Positions 1 to 18,500 are shown, counted from the first letter of the stretch. The stretch: DNA of 52,343 nt from Flavobacteriaceae bacterium (GCA_027080135.1 JALWUJ010000112.1:1-52343), one strand, 5' to 3'. Notes: generated from the letters alone by a model not told the origin. Numbers and translations are program-made.

Positions 1-1
1 A

Positions 2-994
2 AGACCCGATTTAGCACAAGAATTAGTTTCAGATTTAACCGAAGAAATTCTAGCAGGACATTTGTACGACTCTCTTCGAAAAAAAATAATGCCTTTAAGC
101 GACCACTTAATTGTATATCCAAATCACGGTGCGGGGTCTGCTTGTGGTAAAAACATGAGTGCCGAAACTACCGATACTTTAGGACATCAAAAAGAAGTAA
201 ATTACGCTTTACGAGCCAATATGAATCGTGAGGAATTTATAGAAGAAGTGCTAGCAGGTTTATCAGCACCACCTAAATATTTTCCACAAAATGTAATGAT
301 GAACATTCAGGGTTATGAAAGCATAGATTCAGTAATGGAAAAAGGAAAAACACCTTTATCTCCTGAAGCTTTTGAAGTAGCAGCCAACGAAACGGGTGCT
401 ATTGTTATTGATGTTCGTCATCAACACGAGTACGCTAAAGGACATATTCCCAGTTCAATTTTTATAGGTTTGGATGGTGAATTTGCTCCTTGGGTTGGTG
501 CACTTATTGCAGATGTTAAACAACCTATTTTATTAATTGCTCCTAAAGGAAGAGAAAACGAAGCTTTAATTAGACTTTCAAGAGTTGGTTTTGATAATAC
601 CATCGGTTATTTAAATGGAGGGTTTGAAGCATGGAAAAATGCAGGAATGGAATACGATAAAGTTTCGGCAGTTTATGCCTTAGATTTAAAAAATGCTATT
701 GAAAATGAAAAAGCAATCGTTTATGATGTAAGAAAAGAATCTGAATACAAAGCAGAACACGTGATTGGTGCAAAACATACCTGTTTAAGTACTTTAGTAA
801 ATCATATATCTGAATACCCAACAGACCAAAAATTTTACCTTCATTGCGAAGGCGGTTATCGTTCAATGATTGCTTCATCTATATTAAAAAACAGAGGCAT
901 ACATAATTTAATTGATGTTGACGGAGGATTCGAATCTATTAAAGAAGTAGGAATTCCGTTAACCAATTATGTTTGTCCATCAACTTTAAATTAA
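2..994 (+). CDS. MBL-fold hydrolase / pseudo-rhodanese / rhodanese fusion (CstB-like persulfide dioxygenase-rhodanese), 5' truncated by window
   Basis: Open frame continues upstream of the ORF-track start to base 2 (RPDLAQELVSDLTEEILAGHLYDSLRKKIMPLSDHLIVYPNHGAGSACGKNMS, MBL-type C-terminal region), followed by two rhodanese-like domains. The first lacks the active Cys (LIAPKGRENE), the second has it (HCEGGYRS). Confidence 0.88.
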   Translation, partial: RPDLAQELVSDLTEEILAGHLYDSLRKKIMPLSDHLIVYPNHGAGSACGKNMSAETTDTLGHQKEVNYALRANMNREEFIEEVLAGLSAPPKYFPQNVMMNIQGYESIDSVMEKGKTPLSPEAFEVAANETGAIVIDVRHQHEYAKGHIPSSIFIGLDGEFAPWVGALIADVKQPILLIAPKGRENEALIRLSRVGFDNTIGYLNGGFEAWKNAGMEYDKVSAVYALDLKNAIENEKAIVYDVRKESEYKAEHVIGAKHTCLSTLVNHISEYPTDQKFYLHCEGGYRSMIASSILKNRGIHNLIDVDGGFESIKEVGIPLTNYVCPSTLN

Positions 995-4162: not shown

Positions 4163-4801
4163 ATGATTTCAAAAGCCCTTGAAACCAATTTTCCAGATTT
4201 GGCAAAAATGCCAGATTTAAAAAAGGAATTAATTGCCATAAGCAGCATTCATACTTTTGAAGCGGGAACGGTAATTTTAAAACAAGGCGGTTATATTAAA
4301 GTGATACCCTTATTAATTTCAGGATTGGCAAAAGTGTTTAAAGAGGAAGCCGAAAACGGAAACGAGGTGCTTTTATACTACATAAAACCTGGGGAAAGTT
4401 GTGCGATGTCTATGCTCACATTACTTAGAAATGATAAAAGTAAAATCAAAGCTGTAATTGAAGAAGATGCTGAGGTGGTTGTAATTCCTTCAGATAAAGC
4501 TTTAAAAATTGCTCAGAAATATCCTGTTTGGAACGCGTTTGTTTATGAACTCATTAACCAAAAATACGATGAACTTTTAAACGTAGTAGAAATTTTAACT
4601 TTTTCAAATAAAGACAAACGTCTTTTAGAATACCTTAAAAAAGAAGCCCGACTAAAAGGAAATTCTATTTTAAAAACTACTCACCAACACATTGCCTACG
4701 ATTTAGGCTCTTCACGGGAAGTGATTTCAAGACTTTTAAAAAAATTAGAAAATGAAGGAGTTGTAAAACTTCGACAAGGGGAAGTTGAAATATTAAGATA
4801 A
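4163..4801 (+). CDS. Crp/Fnr family transcriptional regulator
   Basis: cNMP-binding-like fold (GLAKVFKEE..YIKPGESCAMSM) and HTH HQHIAYDLGSSREVISRLLKKLENEG. Confidence 0.93.
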   Translation: MISKALETNFPDLAKMPDLKKELIAISSIHTFEAGTVILKQGGYIKVIPLLISGLAKVFKEEAENGNEVLLYYIKPGESCAMSMLTLLRNDKSKIKAVIEEDAEVVVIPSDKALKIAQKYPVWNAFVYELINQKYDELLNVVEILTFSNKDKRLLEYLKKEARLKGNSILKTTHQHIAYDLGSSREVISRLLKKLENEGVVKLRQGEVEILR

Positions 4802-7123: not shown

Positions 7124-7168
7124 TGTGACCAATGTCACATGATTTTATAATTTCAACCTTTACTTTTA
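7124..7168 (+). promoter_or_regulatory. Putative Crp/Fnr operator TGTGACCAATGTCACA plus -7 element TACTTTTA (7161)
   Basis: Perfect 6-bp arms with N4 spacer; -7-like element starts 37 bp after the palindrome start. Confidence 0.65.
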
Positions 7169-7172
7169 CTTT

Positions 7173-7259
7173 ATGAATTTAAACAAAATAATTAAACTTG
7201 TTCTGTCTTGTATTATCTGCATTGGTATTATAACAGTAATTGTTTTGTTGTTTAAATAA
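7173..7259 (+). CDS. Possible 28-aa single-TM micropeptide
   Basis: ATG ORF MNLNKIIKLVLSCIICIGIITVIVLLFK between the predicted promoter and the DUF2892 gene; too short for the ORF track. Confidence 0.35.
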   Translation: MNLNKIIKLVLSCIICIGIITVIVLLFK

Positions 7260-7282
7260 CAAATCTTTTAAATATTTATATT

Positions 7283-7483
7283 ATGAAAAAAAATATGGGC
7301 GGTGTAGACCGCATGATTCGAATTATTATTGCTGCAATAATTGCTGTTCTTTATTTCTTAGACAAAATCCCTGGTACATTAGGGATTGTATTATTGGTTG
7401 CTGCTGGGGTTTTCTTACTTACTAGTTTTATTAACTTTTGCCCATTGTATGCTGTTTTGGGTATTAACACAGGTAAAAAATAA
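7283..7483 (+). CDS. DUF2892 (YgaP-like TM) protein
   Basis: MKKNMGGVDRMIRIIIAAIIAVLYF..FCPLYAVLGINTGKK. Confidence 0.85.
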   Translation: MKKNMGGVDRMIRIIIAAIIAVLYFLDKIPGTLGIVLLVAAGVFLLTSFINFCPLYAVLGINTGKK

Positions 7484-7635
7484 AATATTTTTAGTATTTT
7501 TACAAAAGAAGCCTTATAAAATTGTTTGTTATTTATCACTATTTTTTAGTTGAATAGGTAAAATAGTGGCATTTTAAACGGGCTATTTTTGTGCTAATTT
7601 TCAGCTTACAAATTAGAAGACTAGAGACTCTTCTC

Positions 7636-7680
7636 TGTAACAATAGTTACCCTTTAAAAGTTGAAATATTTGTACTTTCG
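7636..7680 (+). promoter_or_regulatory. Putative Crp/Fnr operator TGTAACAATAGTTACC plus -7 element TACTTTCG (7673)
   Basis: Palindrome GTAAC-N4-GTTAC; -7-like element starts 37 bp after the palindrome start. Confidence 0.6.
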
Positions 7681-7708
7681 TATAGTTAAATTTAAAAAAA
7701 CAACCAAA

Positions 7709-8956
7709 ATGAGTTCACATCATCAAGTACTAGTTATAGGTGGAGGTACCGCAGGAATTATGGTAGCTTCTCAACTACAGAGAAATCACAAAAACATTAA
7801 TGTAGGTTTAATAGAACCTGCAGACACCCATTATTATCAGCCGGCCTACACACTTGTTGGAGCAGGTACTTATGATTTTGACAAACTAAGCCGTCCTATG
7901 GCTTCATTAATTCCTAATGGGGTTACTTGGATTAAAGATTTTGCCACAGAGTTTAAACCTGAAGAAAATACAGTTTCAACAAAAAATAGTGGTGATATTA
8001 CTTATGATTATCTTGTTGTTGCAGCTGGTATTGCTTACGATCATACTATGGTTGAAGGGTTGCCAGAAGCTATAGATAAAGGTGTTGTTTGTAGTAATTA
8101 CACAGATTCTAAACACACATGGGAAGTAGTTAAAAACTTTAAGGGTGGTGTTGCTTTATTTACTCAACCTACTACTCCTATTAAATGTGGAGGAGCTCCT
8201 CAAAAAGCGTTGTATATGTCTGAAGATTACTTCAGAAAATCGGGAGTTAGAAAAGACTCTACTGTAATTTTTGCAACCAATGGTGGTGTAATTTTTGGGG
8301 TTAAAGAAATTGCCGAAACATTAATGAATGTCATCGACAGAAAAGACATTAACGTTAAATTTGGTCATCAATTGGTAAAAATAGATGGAGAAAAACAAAT
8401 TGCTTGGTACAAAATGGGCGATAATGTTTCCGAATACAACCATAAAGATGTAAAAATTTCTGAAGAAAATGGTTTGGTAGGTATTCATTATGATATGTTA
8501 CATTTAGCACCACCACAAACCACTCCTAAATACATAAAAAACTCACCATTGGTAAATGCTGAAGGATGGGTTGATGTAGATATTAATACACTACAACACA
8601 ACAAATATCCCAATATTTTTAGTTTGGGTGATGCTGCCGCTTTACCAACTGCTAAAACAGGTGCTGCCGTAAGAAAACAAGCTCCATTAGTGATTAATAA
8701 TATTGTGAGCATGATGAATAACAACAAAGTATCTGATAAAAAATACAATGGTTATTCTTCTTGTCCACTTGTTACTGGCTACGGAAAAATGGCTCTAGCA
8801 GAATTTGATTATCAAAACAACTTTACTCCAGACCCAGGATTAAAAATGATGTTAATATTCGATTCTTCAAAAGAACATTGGAGATTATGGATGTTAAAAA
8901 AATATATGCTCCCTTACCTATATTGGAATAAGATGATGAAGGGAAAAGAAGTATAA
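7709..8956 (+). CDS. sqr: Type II sulfide:quinone oxidoreductase (FAD-dependent)
   Basis: VIGGGTAGIMVA FAD motif; Cys contexts TTPIKCGGAPQK and YSSCPLVTGYGK resemble SQOR/type II SQR. Start ATG 7709. Confidence 0.9.
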   Translation: MSSHHQVLVIGGGTAGIMVASQLQRNHKNINVGLIEPADTHYYQPAYTLVGAGTYDFDKLSRPMASLIPNGVTWIKDFATEFKPEENTVSTKNSGDITYDYLVVAAGIAYDHTMVEGLPEAIDKGVVCSNYTDSKHTWEVVKNFKGGVALFTQPTTPIKCGGAPQKALYMSEDYFRKSGVRKDSTVIFATNGGVIFGVKEIAETLMNVIDRKDINVKFGHQLVKIDGEKQIAWYKMGDNVSEYNHKDVKISEENGLVGIHYDMLHLAPPQTTPKYIKNSPLVNAEGWVDVDINTLQHNKYPNIFSLGDAAALPTAKTGAAVRKQAPLVINNIVSMMNNNKVSDKKYNGYSSCPLVTGYGKMALAEFDYQNNFTPDPGLKMMLIFDSSKEHWRLWMLKKYMLPYLYWNKMMKGKEV

Positions 8957-8985
8957 TATCCCCAATTAGATTAATAATCTTATTG

Positions 8986-9029
8986 AAACTGTCTAAAAAA
9001 GAAAAGTAACTTTTTTAGACAGTTTTTTT
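8986..9029 (+). terminator. Rho-independent terminator
   Basis: aaactgtctaaaaaa..ttttttagacagttttttt stem-loop with T-tract directly after sqr. Confidence 0.85.
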
Positions 9030-9032
9030 GTT

Positions 9033-9077
9033 TCTGACAATTGTTATTTAAAATCCGTATCTTCGATAGTATCTTTG
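9033..9077 (+). promoter_or_regulatory. Degenerate operator TCTGACAATTGTTATT plus -7 element TATCTTTG (9070)
   Basis: Weak palindrome, but a perfect TAnnTTTG element starts 37 bp after the palindrome start. Confidence 0.5.
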
Positions 9078-9097
9078 ACTTATTCAAAATAAATATT

Positions 9098-9238
9098 ATG
9101 TCTGTTATGTTAGATAAATTTTTACCTCTTTATAATTATAATATGGGTGTTGCCATCATCGGTGTCTTTGCTTTGGTTTGTGTGGCTCTTGTAGTAATTT
9201 TAATTTCATTTATGAAAGGTGGCAAGAAGAAAAAATAA
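9098..9238 (+). CDS. Small single-TM protein
   Basis: MSVMLDKFLPLYNYNMGVAIIGVFALVCVALVVILISFMKGGKKKK; start moved to ATG 9098, 16 nt after the predicted TSS. Confidence 0.7.
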   Translation: MSVMLDKFLPLYNYNMGVAIIGVFALVCVALVVILISFMKGGKKKK

Positions 9239-9241
9239 CTC

Positions 9242-11242
9242 TCACCTAATTAAATAAGAAACATTTATATAACCATTTCTTCCCATTCTTGATATGTTAT
9301 TCCAATCTGCATAGGTAGAATAATTAGTGTCAAAAATATTCTCTACCCCAGCTTTTACAAATAACTTTTGACTTCCGAAGTAAAAATTATACGAAGCACT
9401 CACATTTAATACCATATAACTTTCCGTTTCATTTTCACCAAAATAAGCACTGTAATTAGTTTGTTTTCCAGCACCATTGACGTTCAAATCTGCATCAAAT
9501 AAATTTTTCTTAAAATGAAGGGTTGCTCGATAAGTAAACGGACTAATCAACGGAAGGTTGTTGCCATTGTTATCATTCCCTAAGTTATAGCCAATCATTC
9601 CATTTATATTTAAAGAAGGAATAATCTTATAACTCGCATTAAAATTAGTGGTTAAAATAGTAGCATCATCCAACGCTTCATAAATACGAACTCCATCTGC
9701 ACCAATAGTCATACCCACCAAATCTGGATCGGTTTTTCCGATAATATAATCCATCATATAAAAACCTGAAACCTCAGCACCAAAAGTCCATTTTTTAACA
9801 GACCGATTGACCGAAATATTTGCTTCTAAGGATTTTTCATTCTTCAAATAAGGGTTTCCAATATAATCGTAATTATCAAAACTATTGTATAAATAAAATC
9901 CATAAGCCTCGGTTACTGAAGGAACTCGCTCACCATAACCAACATTGAAGAATAATTTTGTTTTCTGAATTGCCATTTCATATTGAGAAGAAAGATTAAA
10001 GGTAAATCGTGTTTTTGAATTTTCTAAATCGGGATAAAAAATCCGAAGGCTATTCAGTCCAAAATCATCTGCAATTGTCGCATTTTGAACGCCAAAACGT
10101 GCCGTAAATTTTAAGGTTTTATTGTTTCCTATTAAAAACTCATCTTCACCATATAATCCCGTATAAAAAGTACGAACATCTGGCCAAGTAAGCATAAACA
10201 TTAAGTTTTCATTAGGATCGTTGGGGTACATTGTCATTTCTGCCAACGACTTATTATAATAGCCATTAAAGTTAAATAACAAATTATGCTTGTCTTTTTT
10301 AGCGTACATTTTTGAGTAAAATCCAAAAGTATCACTCCAACCTGGCATATCCATATGTACAGGTACATCGGGGCGTTTGGTATCGTCCATAATATGCGTA
10401 ATGGTATTGTAATACACCTTGGTTTCCCATTTATTGATGATTTCTAAAATGCTGTCTTTTTCAAAACTAACCGAAGCAATTAAAGCCTCCGCTAACGAAA
10501 CATCCATGGTTAAAGCAGGGTAACCCACATTGGTTGCTTTATCGTAAATCACCGAACCTATTAAAGTTGAATGATCTCCTGTTTTAACTCCTGCAACTCC
10601 CGAAACATTATACTTTTCGAATTGTGAAAATAAAATTTCTTTGCCTCCTCCAGCAAAATAATTATCCGATTTTCTGTAGATTCCATCTATATTGGTAAAG
10701 AATTTATTGTTGGAATAGTTTAGCTCAGAACTGATGTTTCTGGAGTTACTATTTCCTTCATATCCCATATCTACTCCTATATTAAATTCTTCTTTTTCTA
10801 AACTGCTTTTCTGAAGTTTTAAATCAATACCTCCTCCAATAGTCGATCCATTTTTAGCTCCCTGCTGACCAGAAGTTATTTCTACTTCAGATAAATTTGA
10901 AACATCTACATACGAAGTAATAGGATCCATTTTATCGGTACAAGCACCAAATATTTGCATCCCGTCAATGGTAATGGAAAGTCGTTCAGAAAGCATATTG
11001 TTTATAGAAGCTTCCCAAGCATAATTGCCACGTTTTATCATGGTAATTTTATTGGATTGTTCCAAATAATCATCAATAGACGAAAGTGGTTTTACTTGCT
11101 TTTTATTTTTTAAAGTTCTTTTTCCTATGACAATTACCTCTGTTAAACCTACTGTAGCAGTAGAATCTATCTCTATATTTTGTGCGTAGAATTTTATAGA
11201 AAACGACATCACAAAAGCTATAAAAACGAATTTGTTTTTCAT
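9242..11242 (-). CDS. TonB-dependent receptor, probable copper receptor (OprC/NosA-like)
   Basis: Signal peptide, plug motifs (LSITIDGMQIFGACTDKMDPITSYVDVSNLSEVEITSGQQGAKNGSTIGGGIDL), C-terminal beta strand NGYINVSYLIR. CTDKM (CxxxM) and THIMDD (HxM). Confidence 0.85.
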   Translation of the reverse strand: MKNKFVFIAFVMSFSIKFYAQNIEIDSTATVGLTEVIVIGKRTLKNKKQVKPLSSIDDYLEQSNKITMIKRGNYAWEASINNMLSERLSITIDGMQIFGACTDKMDPITSYVDVSNLSEVEITSGQQGAKNGSTIGGGIDLKLQKSSLEKEEFNIGVDMGYEGNSNSRNISSELNYSNNKFFTNIDGIYRKSDNYFAGGGKEILFSQFEKYNVSGVAGVKTGDHSTLIGSVIYDKATNVGYPALTMDVSLAEALIASVSFEKDSILEIINKWETKVYYNTITHIMDDTKRPDVPVHMDMPGWSDTFGFYSKMYAKKDKHNLLFNFNGYYNKSLAEMTMYPNDPNENLMFMLTWPDVRTFYTGLYGEDEFLIGNNKTLKFTARFGVQNATIADDFGLNSLRIFYPDLENSKTRFTFNLSSQYEMAIQKTKLFFNVGYGERVPSVTEAYGFYLYNSFDNYDYIGNPYLKNEKSLEANISVNRSVKKWTFGAEVSGFYMMDYIIGKTDPDLVGMTIGADGVRIYEALDDATILTTNFNASYKIIPSLNINGMIGYNLGNDNNGNNLPLISPFTYRATLHFKKNLFDADLNVNGAGKQTNYSAYFGENETESYMVLNVSASYNFYFGSQKLFVKAGVENIFDTNYSTYADWNNISRMGRNGYINVSYLIR

Positions 11243-11361
11243 AGTTTTTTCTTTAAAAAGAGACTGTTTTATACAAGAATTCATCCTTAATGAAGAACTA
11301 TCAAAAAATCATTAAACAGAAATTCATAAGTTACAAAACAGCCTCTCGGTTTGTTGCTTTA

Positions 11362-12213
11362 TTAAAATTCTATCTCTAAATAAAGGCTACTACTTTCGTT
11401 ATCATTGGTTACTTCTTCTCCTTTTAACACCTCTCCATTTTCATTTTGAAGCATTAAATTTAACTTCCAATAACCCGTCATGGTTAAAGATAATTTTCCA
11501 TCGTACAACTTTGAGGAAGCATTATAAACTAAATCTTCATTATTAGGCGAAGTATGATTTCCCATACTTGGCATACGAGGGTCAAGCATTACTTTGTAGT
11601 TTTCAACCACTGGAAAACTCATCATATTTTCCATTTTAAAAAGTCCAACAGTCATATCGTTAATAGCCACTTCTGGAGTTTGTGGTTCTATAAAAGCAAG
11701 AATGTATTTTACTTCGTCTGCTCCTATAAAAACCGTTACTGTTTTTTTAGGCGACATAGGAACGCTAATATCTCCTACGGCTTCAAATTCCTCTCCATTT
11801 ATTGTGTAATTAAAAGTTAAATCCCATCCTTCTTCTGCATTTTCGGGCATCTGAAAAATGATAAATCCGTTATAAATGGTTTCTTTTCCTGTTACTTTTA
11901 CTAATTCAGATTTTGGACAAGAATGGCTCATTTCAACCATATGCATCATGGGTTTCCAAGTAAAGGTTGCATTTTCAATAAATTCGTTGGAAGTTTTATC
12001 CTTTAACCGAATGGTAATATCATTATAACCTTGAATTAACTCACCTGTTTTAGTAAATAATTCAATAGTATGTGTATCGTTAGAAATTTCCTGAACAAGC
12101 GTTAAATTTTCTACTTCGCTTACAGGGTCTGTATTATTGTCGTCATTATCGTTTGAACAAGAAACAATTGTGCTAACAAACAGAATTGGCAATATGTATT
12201 TTAAAATTTTCAT
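11362..12213 (-). CDS. Met-rich lipoprotein with two YtkA/FixH-like beta domains
   Basis: Lipobox STIVSCSND; WKPMMHMVEMSHSCP and GLFKMENMMSFPVVENYKVMLDPRMPSMGNHTSP. Confidence 0.75.
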   Translation of the reverse strand: MKILKYILPILFVSTIVSCSNDNDDNNTDPVSEVENLTLVQEISNDTHTIELFTKTGELIQGYNDITIRLKDKTSNEFIENATFTWKPMMHMVEMSHSCPKSELVKVTGKETIYNGFIIFQMPENAEEGWDLTFNYTINGEEFEAVGDISVPMSPKKTVTVFIGADEVKYILAFIEPQTPEVAINDMTVGLFKMENMMSFPVVENYKVMLDPRMPSMGNHTSPNNEDLVYNASSKLYDGKLSLTMTGYWKLNLMLQNENGEVLKGEEVTNDNESSSLYLEIEF

Positions 12214-12332
12214 TTTTTTATAGTATTGTATGCGCCAGTAAACCTATATTTTGGCGGCAATTATTTAAATTGTTTTTTTACTTTACAAGAAGGCACAAGC
12301 ATTTTTTCTTAATAATTAAGTGCAAGTAACCT

Positions 12333-12358
12333 TTCCGAAGTATAAACTTACATCGGAA
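12333..12358. other. Intergenic hairpin ttccga-a-gta..tac-a-tcggaa
   Basis: Inverted repeat between the Cys-rich gene and the Met-rich lipoprotein. Confidence 0.5.
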
Positions 12359-12370
12359 ATGTGAAATTAA

Positions 12371-12754
12371 TTATGAAAACAAAATTTGGGGAGGATGATC
12401 TAAATTATATTCACTTAAATAAGAATATGAATTTAAATAATTAAGGGGTTGTTTTTTAGTGTAAACGATAAACCCAAAGTCTATTTTTTCTTTTTCCTGA
12501 ACAAATAAGTTCACCTCTTTGGTAAGTGTAACTTTTGTTGGAGCTTTATCGTTTGTTGCGTCTTTTTTGGAAACTTCTTTTAAGTGACATTTCCCATTAC
12601 ATTTCATTTCGGGTTTGTCTTTATTTACACAAAACTGTTCGATAAAGTCCGACTGATCTAAATAATAATAAGCATAGGTAATAGACACGTACAGAGTGTT
12701 CCACAGCATCGCAGCGATAAGAATTACAGAAAATGTGTTTCTATACCTATTCAT
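12371..12754 (-). CDS. Small Cys-rich membrane-anchored protein
   Basis: N-terminal TM and CVNKDKPEMKCNGKCHLKE metal-ligand-like motif; start ATG 12754. Confidence 0.7.
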   Translation of the reverse strand: MNRYRNTFSVILIAAMLWNTLYVSITYAYYYLDQSDFIEQFCVNKDKPEMKCNGKCHLKEVSKKDATNDKAPTKVTLTKEVNLFVQEKEKIDFGFIVYTKKQPLNYLNSYSYLSEYNLDHPPQILFS

Positions 12755-12843
12755 AATCTGCAAAATTAAATTTTTAAAATATTTCTTTAACTGATAATTG
12801 TCAGTAAACCCTTTATTTATATGTAACAAAAGTAGCACAGCCG

Positions 12844-12888
12844 TGTATCTAAAGTTACCGTAAACTCTTATTTGCTGTTGTAATTTTG
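12844..12888 (+). promoter_or_regulatory. Putative Crp/Fnr operator TGTATCTAAAGTTACC plus -7 element TAATTTTG (12881)
   Basis: Same 37-bp phasing; lies between the divergent Cys-rich/TBDR operon and the RND operon. Confidence 0.6.
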
Positions 12889-12912
12889 CCGAAATTATTA
12901 ATGTTAAACAAG

Positions 12913-14223
12913 ATGAAATATTTATATAAAATCATTTTTGGATTTTTTTTATTTTCTGCTAGCATTCAAGCACAGGAAGTAAAATCTATTTCAAAATCAG
13001 AAGTACTCTCTAAAGTATTAGAAGAGAATACTTCCCTTAAAATTTCGGAACAAGAGTTTTTAAAAGCTCGTGCCGATTACCGACAAACCAATTCGGTTTT
13101 TTTGCCAAGTGTAAATGCTTCTCATTCGGGAATTGCAACTACCAATCCTTTAATGGCTTTTGGAACCAAGTTGAATCAAGGAATTTTAACTCCTGAAGAT
13201 TTTAACCCAGACCTTTTAAACAATCCAGAGGAAGTAACTGGGTTTGCAACCAAATTCGAAGTTCAACAACCACTAATTAATTTGGATGGTTTTTACCAAC
13301 GAAAAGCTGCCAAAAACAAAATGGATGCAATAGAGTTACAGTCGCTTCGTACCAAAGATTACTTAACTTTTGAGGTAGAAAAAGCTTATATGCAATTGCA
13401 ATTGGCTTATAAAGCGGTGGAAGTTTTGGAAAAAACTTACCAAGCAACTTTAGAAAATAAGAAGGTTGCCGAAAACAGTTTTAAACAAGGATATCTTCAA
13501 AAAGCTGATGTTTTATCGGTAGATGTTCGGGTGAATGAAGTTCAAAATCAGTTGCAATCTGCAAAGAGTGCGGTTCAAAATGCATCCGATTATCTGGCTT
13601 TTTTAATGAATGAAAAACAAGGTGCTGTCTTAATGCCTTCCGATAGTTTAACCATTGCAACAATAGTTGATAAAAACACGATTGCTCTTTCCGAAGAACG
13701 GTTAGATATTAAAGCAATGCAATTGACAACTGAAGCATACGAGTCACTTTACAAAGCAAATAAAATGGCTTTTTTACCTCGATTAAATGCTTTTGGAAGT
13801 TACGAATTGTACGATGAAAAAATATTTCAAGGAAGTGCAAGTGGATATTTAGTAGGTGCTCAACTAAACTGGAATTTATTTGACGGTTATAAAAACGTCG
13901 GAAAAACACAAAAAAGTAAAGCACAATACGACCAATCGATGTTGGAATATGAACAATATGTTTCACAAAGTAACTTAGATTTAAACAAAGCAAAACGAAT
14001 GGTTTCGGATGCAGAAAACAAACTAAAATTAACCAATTTAGCATTGGAACAATCCAAAGAATCACTACGTATTAGAACCAATAGATTTAAAGAAGGATTG
14101 GAAAAAACAACCGATTTACTATTGGCAGAATCTCAATACGCTCAAAAGCAATTACAATATTATCAAACCATATTTGAATACAATTACGCATTTCAATACC
14201 TACAATTTTTAACCAAAGAATAA
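12913..14223 (+). CDS. TolC family outer membrane efflux protein
   Basis: MKYLYKIIFGFFLFSASIQAQ signal peptide, coiled-coil OEP repeats. Start 12913 (or 12901). Confidence 0.9.
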   Translation: MKYLYKIIFGFFLFSASIQAQEVKSISKSEVLSKVLEENTSLKISEQEFLKARADYRQTNSVFLPSVNASHSGIATTNPLMAFGTKLNQGILTPEDFNPDLLNNPEEVTGFATKFEVQQPLINLDGFYQRKAAKNKMDAIELQSLRTKDYLTFEVEKAYMQLQLAYKAVEVLEKTYQATLENKKVAENSFKQGYLQKADVLSVDVRVNEVQNQLQSAKSAVQNASDYLAFLMNEKQGAVLMPSDSLTIATIVDKNTIALSEERLDIKAMQLTTEAYESLYKANKMAFLPRLNAFGSYELYDEKIFQGSASGYLVGAQLNWNLFDGYKNVGKTQKSKAQYDQSMLEYEQYVSQSNLDLNKAKRMVSDAENKLKLTNLALEQSKESLRIRTNRFKEGLEKTTDLLLAESQYAQKQLQYYQTIFEYNYAFQYLQFLTKE

Positions 14224-14224
14224 G

Positions 14225-15295
14225 ATGAAAAAATATATTACCTTAATAGTACTGTCCTTGATTTTAGTAAGTTGTGGCAGCGATGACAAAAAAATAGCCG
14301 TTAATAGTACTCCAGCAATTGCTGTAAAAGTAAGCTCGGTGAATGCAGAAAATAACAGTCCGTTTTTTACAGCTAGTGGAAAAATTAAAGCGACCAATCA
14401 AATAACGTTAAGTACTCGTACCAGCGGTTATGTAGACAAAATTTATGTAAAAGTAGGTGATAAAGTAGCTAAAGGAAAATTACTTTTATCTATTAATAAT
14501 GCAGATTTGCAAGCAAAACGCGCTCAAGTAAACGCTAATATTACACAAGCAAAAGCTGCTTATACTATTGCTGAAAAAGATTACAATCGTTTTAAAAATT
14601 TATTTGCAGATAATTCCGCTTCTCAAAAAGAAATGGATGATATGACGGCAAATTTCGAAATGGCAAAAGCACGTTTAGAAGCTGCCAATCAAATGAAAAA
14701 CGAAATTAATGCACAGTTTAAATATGTAAATATCACCGCTCCTTTTAGTGGTGTTATAACTAACAAGTTTATTGAAGAAGGAGATTTGGCTAACCCAGGA
14801 ATGCCTTTAATTGCAGTAGAAGCTCCAACTCATTTTGAAGTTTCTCTTTCAGTTCCCGAATCAGAAATATCTCAAATTAAATCAGCGATGAAAGTGGATG
14901 TTTTGGTAAAATCTATCAACCAAACCTTAAAAGGTGAAGTTACAGAAGTAAGTACTTCCGCAGTAAATACAGGTGGACAATACAAAGTTAAAATAACTTT
15001 AGAAAAAACAGATGCAGCTATTTTATCAGGAATGTATACCACAGTTAAATTTCCCAATAAAAGAAAAAGTAAAAACAACGCGATTTTAATTCCTTCAAAT
15101 GTAATAGTAAACAACGGTCAACTTACAGGTATTTATACGGTAAGTTCAACAAATACAGCCATTTTACGTTGGTTGCGTTTAGGAAAAACTTATGGTGATC
15201 AAGTAGAAGTATTATCGGGATTAAATTCCGAAGAACAATACATTGTTTCTGCTGAAGGAAAATTATATAACGGCGTAAAAGTGTCTATAAAATAA
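14225..15295 (+). CDS. RND efflux membrane fusion protein (HlyD/AcrA type lipoprotein)
   Basis: Lipobox LILVSCGSD; lipoyl/hairpin SGYVDKIYVKVGDKVAKGKLL, ITAPFSGVIT. Confidence 0.93.
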   Translation: MKKYITLIVLSLILVSCGSDDKKIAVNSTPAIAVKVSSVNAENNSPFFTASGKIKATNQITLSTRTSGYVDKIYVKVGDKVAKGKLLLSINNADLQAKRAQVNANITQAKAAYTIAEKDYNRFKNLFADNSASQKEMDDMTANFEMAKARLEAANQMKNEINAQFKYVNITAPFSGVITNKFIEEGDLANPGMPLIAVEAPTHFEVSLSVPESEISQIKSAMKVDVLVKSINQTLKGEVTEVSTSAVNTGGQYKVKITLEKTDAAILSGMYTTVKFPNKRKSKNNAILIPSNVIVNNGQLTGIYTVSSTNTAILRWLRLGKTYGDQVEVLSGLNSEEQYIVSAEGKLYNGVKVSIK

Positions 15296-15302
15296 CTAAA
15301 AG

Positions 15303-18300
15303 ATGAAAGAAGGATTAGCAGGTAAAATAGCCAAGAGCTTTATAGGCTCTAAGCTTACAGTACTTCTAATGATCGTGTTTATGGTTATTGGAGTCTATAG
15401 TTCGTTTTTAATTCCGAGGGAAGAGGAGCCACAAATCGATGTGCCAATGGCAGATATATTTGTTGGTTATCCAGGAGCAAGCCCTTCCGAAGTGGAGTCG
15501 AGAGTCGTAAAACCTTTAGAGAAATTAATCTCGAATATCAAGGGAGTTGAATATGTGTATTCTACTTCTATGAAGGAACAAGGAATGGTCATAGTACAGT
15601 TTTACGTGGGTGAAGACATTGAGCGTTCGTTCGTGAAATTATACAACGAGATTAATAAGCATATGGATATTATGCCCGAAGGGGTTACATTTCCGTTAGT
15701 AAAAACTCGTGCGATTGATGATGTTCCAATGTTAGGATTAACACTTTGGAGCGATAATTACAACGATTATCAATTAAATTTAATAGCACAAGAGCTGTCT
15801 AATGAAATTGAAAAAGTAAACGATGTTTCTATCACCAAACGAATTGGAGGGCGTAATCGTCAGCTTCGCATTGTTTTAGATAAAGATAAAATGGCGGAAA
15901 GCGGATTGGATTTCCTTTCTATTTCGCAAATGATAAAAGCCAACAATCAACAATTAAGTTCAGGAAGTTTTAATAAAAGTGACACGGAATTTTTAGTAAA
16001 TACCGGAGACTTTTTAAGTTCTGTAGAAGATGTAGAAAACTTGGTAGTAGGTGTTCAACAAGGGCAACCCATTTATCTGAAGCAAATTGCTACCGTTTTA
16101 GACGGTCCCGAATTATCAAAAGATTATGTAGCATTAGGTTTTGGTCAGGCAAGTAAATTAGTTTCAGAATATAGTGGAGAATATCCCGCTGTAACCATTT
16201 CTGTTGCCAAAAGAAAAGGTGCTGATGCTATGAAAATATCTAGCATTATTTTGGATAAAGTGGAACATTTAAAAACCACTTTAATTCCAGATGACGTTCA
16301 CGTAGAAGTAACTAGAAACTACGGAGAAACCGCTTCGCAAAAGGTATCTGAATTACTTTTACACTTATTAGGTTCTATTTTGGCAGTAACCCTTGTAGTG
16401 ATGTTGGCGATGGGCTGGCGTGGTGGATTGGTCGTGTTTTTATCGGTTCCAATCACTTTTGCATTAACCTTATTGAGTTACTATATGCTCGATTATACAC
16501 TTAACAGAATTACGCTATTTGCCTTGGTTTTTGTAACAGGAATTGTCGTCGATGACTCCATTATTATTGCTGAGAATATGCACCGGCATTTTAAGATGAA
16601 ACGATTGCCTTTTAAACAGGCAGCTTTGTACGCAATTAATGAAGTAGGAAATCCAACTATTTTAGCAACTTTTACGGTTATTGCTTCGGTGTTACCAATG
16701 GCTTTTGTATCAGGATTAATGGGTCCTTATATGGCACCAATGCCCATTGGAGCTTCAATTGCCATGATACTTTCATTATTTGTTGCCTTGACTATTACTC
16801 CTTATTTAGGTTATATTTTCCTTCGTGAAAAAGACAAAAAAGGAGCTAAGAAAAAGAAAGTACACAAAGAGTTAGAAGAAACTTTTATCTATAAGATTTA
16901 CAACAAATTTGAAAAACCATTAATTGAAAAACCTGTTGTAAGATGGGCATTTTTAGGAGGAACTTTTTTGGTATTGTTCGGAACTATAGGAATGTTTTTT
17001 ACAAATTCGGTAGCTGTAAAAATGCTTCCTTTTGATAATAAAAATGAATTTCAAGTAGTCATAGATATGCCTGAAGGAACTACTTTAGAACGTACCGCAG
17101 TGGTTGCTAAAGAGATTTCACAATACTTAGCGCAACAACCTGAAGTGGTAAATTACCAAAGTTATGTGGGTGCTTCGGCTCCCATTACTTTTAATGGTTT
17201 GGTACGTCATTACGACCTTCGTGGTGGAAGTTATATGGCAGATATTCAGGTGAATTTAACAGACAAACATGACCGAAAATTACAAAGTCACGAGATAGCG
17301 AGTTCGGTTAGACCAGAAATTCAGAAAATTGCGGAAAAGTATAATGCTAACGTGAAAATTGTGGAAGTTCCACCAGGACCTCCAGTTCTTTCAACTATTG
17401 TGGCTGAAGTTTATGGACCTGATTACAATACTCAGATGGAGGTTGCGAATCAGCTTCAGAATTTATTAAAAAACACCGATGATGTAGTAGATGTAGATTG
17501 GATGGTAGAAGCAGATCAAACCGAATATAAATTCATTATCGATAAAGAGAAGGCTATTTTGTACGGTGTAACACCTCAGCAGATTGCTCATACGATGAAT
17601 ATGGCACTTTCAGAAAGAGCCGTCACCAATTTATACGATGAAAATGCCACTAAACAAGTGGGATTAATATTGGCGTTGGATGAAACTGAAAAGTCTTCCA
17701 TTGCAGATATTTCACAACTGAAAATCCTTTCAAAACAAGGAACATTAATTACTATTGGAGATTTGGTTGAAATAAAAGAAACCACTAGAGAGAAGAATAT
17801 TTTCAGAAAAAATCAAAAACGGGTGGTTTATGTAACGGCAGATATGGCGGGTGAATTGGAAAGCCCTGTGTATGCAATTTTAGGAATGACAGACCGATTA
17901 AAAGAAATTAATCTGCCTGAAGGATATACCATAGATGAGCTTTACCTTTCGCAACCTGCTTATGAAGATGATTACACCGTAAAATGGGATGGAGAATGGC
18001 AAATTACATTAGAAGTGTTTAGAGATTTAGGAATGGCTTTTTTGGTCGCAATTATCTTTATTTATATTTTGATTGTAGGTTGGTTCCAAAGTTTTAAAGC
18101 ACCGATGGTGATGATGGTAGCAATTCCACTTTCCTTAATCGGAATTATTTTAGGGCACTGGATGATGGATGCATTTTTTACAGCAACTTCCTTTATCGGA
18201 ATGATTGCTTTGGCAGGAATAATGGTGAGGAACTCGGTCTTATTAATTGACTTTATCAACCTTCGTTTAGAAGAAGGAATTCCGTTGAAAAAAGCAGTAA

Positions 18301-18500
18301 TTGAAGCAGGTGCGGTACGAACTACCCCTATTTTATTAACAGCAGGAACCGTAGTAATCGGGGCATTTGTAATTTTATTTGACCCAATTTTCCAAGGATT
18401 AGCCATCTCGTTAATGGGAGGAACTATCGTATCGACTGTACTTACTTTATTGGTAGTACCGTTGGTATATTATTTAATTGAAAGAAAGAATTATAAATAA
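15303..18500 (+). CDS. RND family efflux permease
   Basis: 1065 aa, IPREEEPQIDVPMADIFVGYPGASPSEVE, TM segments, GIMVRNSVLLIDFI. Confidence 0.95.
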   Translation: MKEGLAGKIAKSFIGSKLTVLLMIVFMVIGVYSSFLIPREEEPQIDVPMADIFVGYPGASPSEVESRVVKPLEKLISNIKGVEYVYSTSMKEQGMVIVQFYVGEDIERSFVKLYNEINKHMDIMPEGVTFPLVKTRAIDDVPMLGLTLWSDNYNDYQLNLIAQELSNEIEKVNDVSITKRIGGRNRQLRIVLDKDKMAESGLDFLSISQMIKANNQQLSSGSFNKSDTEFLVNTGDFLSSVEDVENLVVGVQQGQPIYLKQIATVLDGPELSKDYVALGFGQASKLVSEYSGEYPAVTISVAKRKGADAMKISSIILDKVEHLKTTLIPDDVHVEVTRNYGETASQKVSELLLHLLGSILAVTLVVMLAMGWRGGLVVFLSVPITFALTLLSYYMLDYTLNRITLFALVFVTGIVVDDSIIIAENMHRHFKMKRLPFKQAALYAINEVGNPTILATFTVIASVLPMAFVSGLMGPYMAPMPIGASIAMILSLFVALTITPYLGYIFLREKDKKGAKKKKVHKELEETFIYKIYNKFEKPLIEKPVVRWAFLGGTFLVLFGTIGMFFTNSVAVKMLPFDNKNEFQVVIDMPEGTTLERTAVVAKEISQYLAQQPEVVNYQSYVGASAPITFNGLVRHYDLRGGSYMADIQVNLTDKHDRKLQSHEIASSVRPEIQKIAEKYNANVKIVEVPPGPPVLSTIVAEVYGPDYNTQMEVANQLQNLLKNTDDVVDVDWMVEADQTEYKFIIDKEKAILYGVTPQQIAHTMNMALSERAVTNLYDENATKQVGLILALDETEKSSIADISQLKILSKQGTLITIGDLVEIKETTREKNIFRKNQKRVVYVTADMAGELESPVYAILGMTDRLKEINLPEGYTIDELYLSQPAYEDDYTVKWDGEWQITLEVFRDLGMAFLVAIIFIYILIVGWFQSFKAPMVMMVAIPLSLIGIILGHWMMDAFFTATSFIGMIALAGIMVRNSVLLIDFINLRLEEGIPLKKAVIEAGAVRTTPILLTAGTVVIGAFVILFDPIFQGLAISLMGGTIVSTVLTLLVVPLVYYLIERKNYK

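Follow-up and report, generated by a model that had tools for sequence, protein, structure and literature searches.

The locus considered here, a 52,343-bp stretch of a marine flavobacterial genome (the window), raises the question of whether promoters that share one operator geometry also share a regulator, and to what signal such a regulator would respond. At 7124, 7636, 9033 and 12844, palindromes read directly from the sequence each begin 37 bp ahead of a -7 box resembling TAnnTTTG, as the initial annotation had described, and rescanning returned the same coordinates and offset for all four. The putative operators are TGTGAC-CAAT-GTCACA at the DUF2892 promoter (7124..7139, plus strand, with -7 box TACTTTTA at 7161..7168), TGTAAC-AATA-GTTACC at the sqr promoter (7636..7651, plus; TACTTTCG, 7673..7680), TCTGAC-AATT-GTTATT before a 46-aa membrane protein (9033..9048, plus; TATCTTTG, 9070..9077) and TGTATC-TAAA-GTTACC at the RND operon (12844..12859, plus; TAATTTTG, 12881..12888). 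No other site was returned when the whole window was scanned on both strands, at offsets 36-38, for TGTRAC-N4-GTYACA (12 positions) plus TAnnTTTG (6 positions) with a threshold of at least 15 out of 18. Offset 37 accounts for four window matches, against 14 in total for the remaining 73 offsets of 17-90 (mean 0.19 each), giving P = 5e-5 for the named offset and 0.004 after correction for all offsets; the dinucleotide-shuffled window yielded 0.13 matches on average. Across the genome, no enrichment of the palindrome without its spacing was found (17 matches with at most one mismatch, 16 in the control); the signal is carried by the spacing.

The window opens with the 3' part of a persulfide dioxygenase (MBL fold plus rhodanese; 1..994, plus), the phased promoter of which lies on contig C28 (7525). 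C28 immediately precedes the window, sharing 127 bp with its start, and contains the genes for SulP and two persulfide dioxygenases, all three behind phased sites. Further along the plus strand are the Crp/Fnr regulator gene crpA (4163..4801; PF00027, PF13545), a DUF2892/YgaP-like membrane protein (7283..7483; PF11127, E 3.5e-22), the sulfide:quinone oxidoreductase sqr (7709..8956; PF07992, with similarity to NF049943 under its cut-off) and an RND efflux operon made up of an outer-membrane protein (OEP), an HlyD-type adaptor and an AcrB-type permease (12901..18500; PF02321, PF16576, PF00873; NCBIfam). For the OEP, in-frame ATG codons occur at 12901 and 12913, and the latter gives the 5' spacing that is usual among orthologues.

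Recurrence of the phased site and its target genes

The pattern was followed through 201 genomes of Flavobacteriaceae, with most genera represented once. When GTNAC-N4-GTNAC plus TAnnTTTG was searched at offsets 21-51, offset 37 took 82 of the 150 matches listed from these genomes, with 14 at 36 and 8 at 38, while the offsets outside 36-38 averaged 1.6 each; of the 98 matches listed for the GTRAC/GTYAC form (201 genomes), 75 lay at 37, these tallies being compiled by hand. A scan of relatives, the check named in the initial annotation, spoke in favour of its pattern, since the exact 37-bp form occurs at 342 sites in 147 of the 201 genomes and the reversed pattern that served as control at 2. 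In a phylum-wide sample the pattern extended to further families within the class and, outside the class, to one genome only.

The genes behind these sites were surveyed at 60 family loci picked by DNA pattern alone, by reading the first downstream gene. In at least 39 of the 60 this gene is homologous to sulfur-cluster genes of the window's own genome, the targets being persulfide dioxygenase, DUF983, SulP, DUF2892, thioredoxin, rhodanese, CrpB and the RND OEP; at 11 loci it is orthologous to the window's OEP gene (58-70% identity). Among the other targets TauE is frequent, and CydA and peroxiredoxin also occur. Taken gene by gene, a phased site stands before sqr in 25 of 29 other genera, before OEP orthologues in 13 other genomes and before crpB itself in 7, and a SorA-like sulfite dehydrogenase divergent from sqr in L049 has one as well. 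Close relatives keep the site before DUF2892, sqr, OEP, SulP and both persulfide dioxygenases; DUF2892 stands without it in about 10 of 30 genomes.

The palindrome at fixed spacing very probably marks a sulfide-response regulon, apparently undescribed, no published account of it having been found in a literature search that covered few subscription journals. The proposal of a single regulon for all four promoters stands for DUF2892, sqr and the RND operon, given the sulfur-gene targets of pattern-picked sites, and falls for 9033. Control of sulfide oxidation appears undescribed in Bacteroidota, which are major degraders in sulfidic marine sediments. A defined operator with fixed promoter geometry can be used for regulon prediction in hundreds of genomes, and its target list connects sulfide handling with the RND pump and with several membrane proteins that are uncharacterised.

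A Crp/Fnr clade and its possible signal

The genome has four Crp/Fnr genes: crpA at 4163, crpB on contig C84, outside the window, an Fnr-like gene on C49 that adjoins a copper ATPase of the cbb3-assembly type (named by eye), and one on C58. CrpB is 38% identical to CrpA. As counted by hand, 340 of the 342 exact-phase sites fall in the 169 genomes with a gene of the CrpA/B clade, and such sites occur in 145 of these 169 genomes, against 2 of the 32 without the clade (Fisher P 1e-18), a co-occurrence that is partly confounded with genome size; among genomes of at least 2.2 Mb the figures are 136 of 158 and 2 of 13. We consider it likely, and hold this reading with good confidence, that the sites at 7124, 7636 and 12844 are class II operators of CrpA/CrpB-clade activators driving a sulfide and persulfide oxidation regulon.

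Both proteins belong to the Crp/Fnr superfamily. PF00027 and PF13545 score above their cut-offs in CrpA and CrpB, a Foldseek comparison with CRP-family structures gave E 1e-15, and their structure models show the Crp/Fnr fold (pLDDT 90 for CrpA and 86 for CrpB, the pocket loop of the latter being poorly ordered). Among solved structures, 3dv8, a Crp/Fnr protein of E. rectale, comes nearest in both sequence and fold and is 27% identical in structural alignment. With E. coli cAMP-CRP in its class II mode the system has in common the fold (PF00027 plus HTH_Crp_2), the TGTGA-type half-sites and the centre at -41.5; it differs in a polymerase that uses the TAnnTTTG -7 box, in the pocket cysteine and in a regulator that is not an orthologue. 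CrpA and CrpB score 46 and 54 bits against the NCBIfam equivalog cut-off of 266, and they have Lys-Ser in place of CRP Arg82-Ser83, Arg82 being the residue that contacts cAMP (alignment by eye). FNR and FixK regulators of cbb3 and anaerobic genes share the promoter geometry, but neither CrpA nor CrpB has the N-terminal Cys cluster for a 4Fe-4S centre, and the helix and site of CrpA are CRP-like. The regulons of FisR, SqrR/BigR and CstR in Proteobacteria and Firmicutes likewise control sqr, persulfide dioxygenase, rhodanese and transporter genes; their families (sigma-54 activator, ArsR and CsoR, respectively) and operators differ from those of CrpA/B, which match Crp/Fnr-type models only.

These comparisons bear on the alternative that survives best, namely that the promoters are genuine Crp/Fnr class II promoters answering a general cue (low oxygen, NO or a nucleotide), with the sulfur genes as part of the response. 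The geometry shared with Fnr boxes, the presence of CydA and peroxiredoxin genes among the targets and the match in fold to cAMP-CRP would all agree with such a cue, but sulfide oxidation dominates the target set, and CrpA and CrpB score low against the CRP model and have lysine at the cAMP-contacting position, so that we regard this alternative as rather unlikely.

For the sulfide-specific reading, the signal would probably be persulfide at the pocket cysteine. CrpA has a single cysteine, Cys80, in the loop of the phosphate-binding cassette, at the start of its helix; this residue is invariant in CrpA and CrpB. The cysteines of CrpB (Cys77, 83 and 84) all lie in the pocket loop, Cys83 and Cys84 being invariant additions. 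Persulfidation is extensive in a Crp-like Acinetobacter protein exposed to sulfide (PMC7315123), so that thiol sensing through the pocket cysteine of CrpA and CrpB is plausible by analogy. More tentatively, the two proteins might represent a new class of sulfur sensor, in which persulfidation of the invariant cysteine (Cys80, or Cys77 with Cys83/84) would take the place of nucleotide binding and turn on sulfide oxidation throughout Flavobacteriaceae, and a Glu/Val difference in the recognition helix would split the targets of the paralogues; this is possible, although we would not yet bet on it.

A proposed division of targets between CrpA and CrpB

The initial annotation had linked all four promoters, as one regulon, to the gene at 4163. 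CrpA orthologues are restricted to Aquimarina, Lutibacter and related MAGs (three sampled genera), and most genera with phased sites have CrpB and no CrpA orthologue, which means that across most of the family the sites at sqr and RND must work without CrpA. CrpB-type genes are widespread and lie among sulfur genes, often with a phased site of their own. With four Crp/Fnr genes in the genome besides, 4163 as the sole regulator finds no support: CrpB is the better candidate for the sqr and RND sites, and CrpA is unlikely to be their regulator. Sole control of the four promoters by CrpA, in a single regulon, would suit its position within the cluster and the adjacency, in relatives, of crpA and a DUF2892 gene with a phased site; this is improbable, however, in view of the sites in genera without CrpA, of the Fnr-type box at 9033 and of the operator type at sqr and RND.

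Operator type was judged from half-site position 4. In E. coli CRP, Glu181 reads the G:C pair of TGTGA, and the aligned residue of the recognition helix is Glu in CrpA (SSREVISR) and Val in CrpB. At CrpA-linked DUF2892/FAH sites position 4 is G in 20 of 29 half-sites (20 G, 9 A), against 3 of 60 (3:57) for the remaining genes of these loci (P 3e-10, a statistic that ignores kinship). At sqr and RND the sites belong to the A:T type, as found in CrpB-only genomes, and are most likely bound by CrpB. CrpA more likely acts on DUF2892 through the G:C-type site TGTGAC/GTCACA at 7124, its most likely target, to which both the G:C pair at position 4 and the phased site before DUF2892 in CrpA-bearing relatives point.

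We infer that the Glu/Val difference divides the targets of the paralogues as a tendency and not as a rule, since G018, G032 and G121 have G:C-type DUF2892 sites and, among the Crp genes inspected, V-type proteins only. Likewise, G:C sites at persulfide dioxygenase genes in CrpB-only genomes indicate that CrpB may bind both types. A strict rule, by which a G:C-type DUF2892 site means an E-type Crp in the genome, was discarded because it is not significant across genomes (P 0.16); the pattern holds, with exceptions, where an E-type Crp adjoins DUF2892. A third Crp clade, which has the Glu-type helix GTAREVITR but lacks the pocket Cys, is present in 15 of the 201 genomes (e.g. L153, L156 and L160), in each of them directly beside DUF2892, and the neighbouring DUF2892 typically has a GGTGAC-N4-GTCACT site. 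The CrpA/CrpB pair constitutes a natural test of one recognition-helix residue dividing targets.

Promoter geometry and mode of action

Class II operators are centred at -41.5, as established for E. coli CRP. In a published map of transcription starts for Flavobacterium psychrophilum, the sigma-A TAnnTTTG box occupies -12 to -5 (PMC9723704), so that with an offset of 37 the 16-bp palindrome spans -49 to -34 and is centred at -41.5, the start position being taken from the box placement in that species. No conserved -33 element was found in 166 aligned promoters, which therefore look activator-dependent. Both the assignment of TAnnTTTG as the Bacteroidota -7 box and the class II geometry, proposed earlier from the window alone, agree with these data.

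CrpA and CrpB would accordingly be activators of one small flavobacterial clade, whose dimer at -41.5 would replace the missing -33 contact and recruit sigma-A RNA polymerase to the -7 box. The regulon would comprise SQR, persulfide dioxygenases, rhodaneses, SulP and TauE exporters, DUF2892, DUF983, thioredoxin and the RND pump. CrpB, with its V-type helix and TGTAAC/GTTAC sites, would drive the metabolic promoters, often including its own; crpA, downstream of a CrpB-type persulfide dioxygenase promoter, would feed forward on DUF2892 via the G:C-type site.

The opposite mode, repression by covering the -33 region and release by sulfide, would fit the overlap of operator and -33 region, and repression is the mode of the known sensors of persulfide SqrR, BigR and CstR. 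We consider it very unlikely, because no -33 element is conserved and the spacing is fixed to 1 bp, as expected for contact with polymerase, and activation by the bound protein is what we infer. That degenerate palindromes merely line up by chance in intergenic DNA rich in A and T, to which the control-level frequency of the palindrome alone might point, is refuted by the family-wide spacing peak at 37; the 342-to-2 ratio over the control, the co-occurrence with the Crp clade and the conservation at sqr also speak against it.

Between operator and DUF2892 lies a 28-codon ORF (7173..7259, plus; MNLNKIIKLVLSCIICIGIITVIVLLFK) for a CxxC membrane micropeptide. Similar hydrophobic peptides of 28-32 aa, with Cys-x-x-Cys at the same place, occur in at least 10 relatives, and the coincidence of the ATG (7173) with the predicted +1 suggests a leaderless start.

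The 9033 box and neighbouring observations

The site at 9033 had been described as a degenerate member of the same operator family. It is real and degenerate, but its orthologues in L002, L018, L054 and L071 (TCTGACAATTATCATT, TGTGATAAATGTCATA, TCTGACAAATGTCATA and AATGATTTTTATCATA, each at offset 37) read TGAY-N4-RTCA, so that a weak copy of the main operator had to be rejected; orthologues of 7124, 7636 and 12844 keep TGTRAC-N4-GTYAC. By sequence, 9033 is a conserved Fnr-type box with the same geometry and a different operator. Fnr-type boxes peak at this geometry too, with 22 of the 150 matches listed (61 genomes; tallied by hand) at offset 37 and a mean of 4.3 elsewhere, and an FNR/FixK-type regulator probably acts here. 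The downstream ORF (9098..9238, plus) encodes the 46-aa membrane protein, which has homologues in L002, L018, L054, L071 and L143 and no match in Pfam or NCBIfam. A terminator-like hairpin 3' of sqr (8987-9030, plus; ACTGTCTAAAAAA ... TTTTTTAGACAGT, then a T-run) directly precedes the 9033 site, suggesting that the 46-aa gene has its own promoter.

Elsewhere in the same genome, a further exact-phase site precedes a thioredoxin gene (G000:C3:4387, L151). On the minus strand of the window, 12371-12757 encodes a small Cys-containing, secreted-looking protein of no family, whose homologue in L098 carries a phased site of the G:C type; the idea that the 12844 palindrome also serves this gene as part of a divergent phased promoter was rejected, the minus-strand -7-like box standing at offset 25 (by eye). 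In L117, L132 and L139, too, a phased site stands before the gene for a small protein with cysteine, which is about 105-120 aa long and without a Pfam family (L117 tested).
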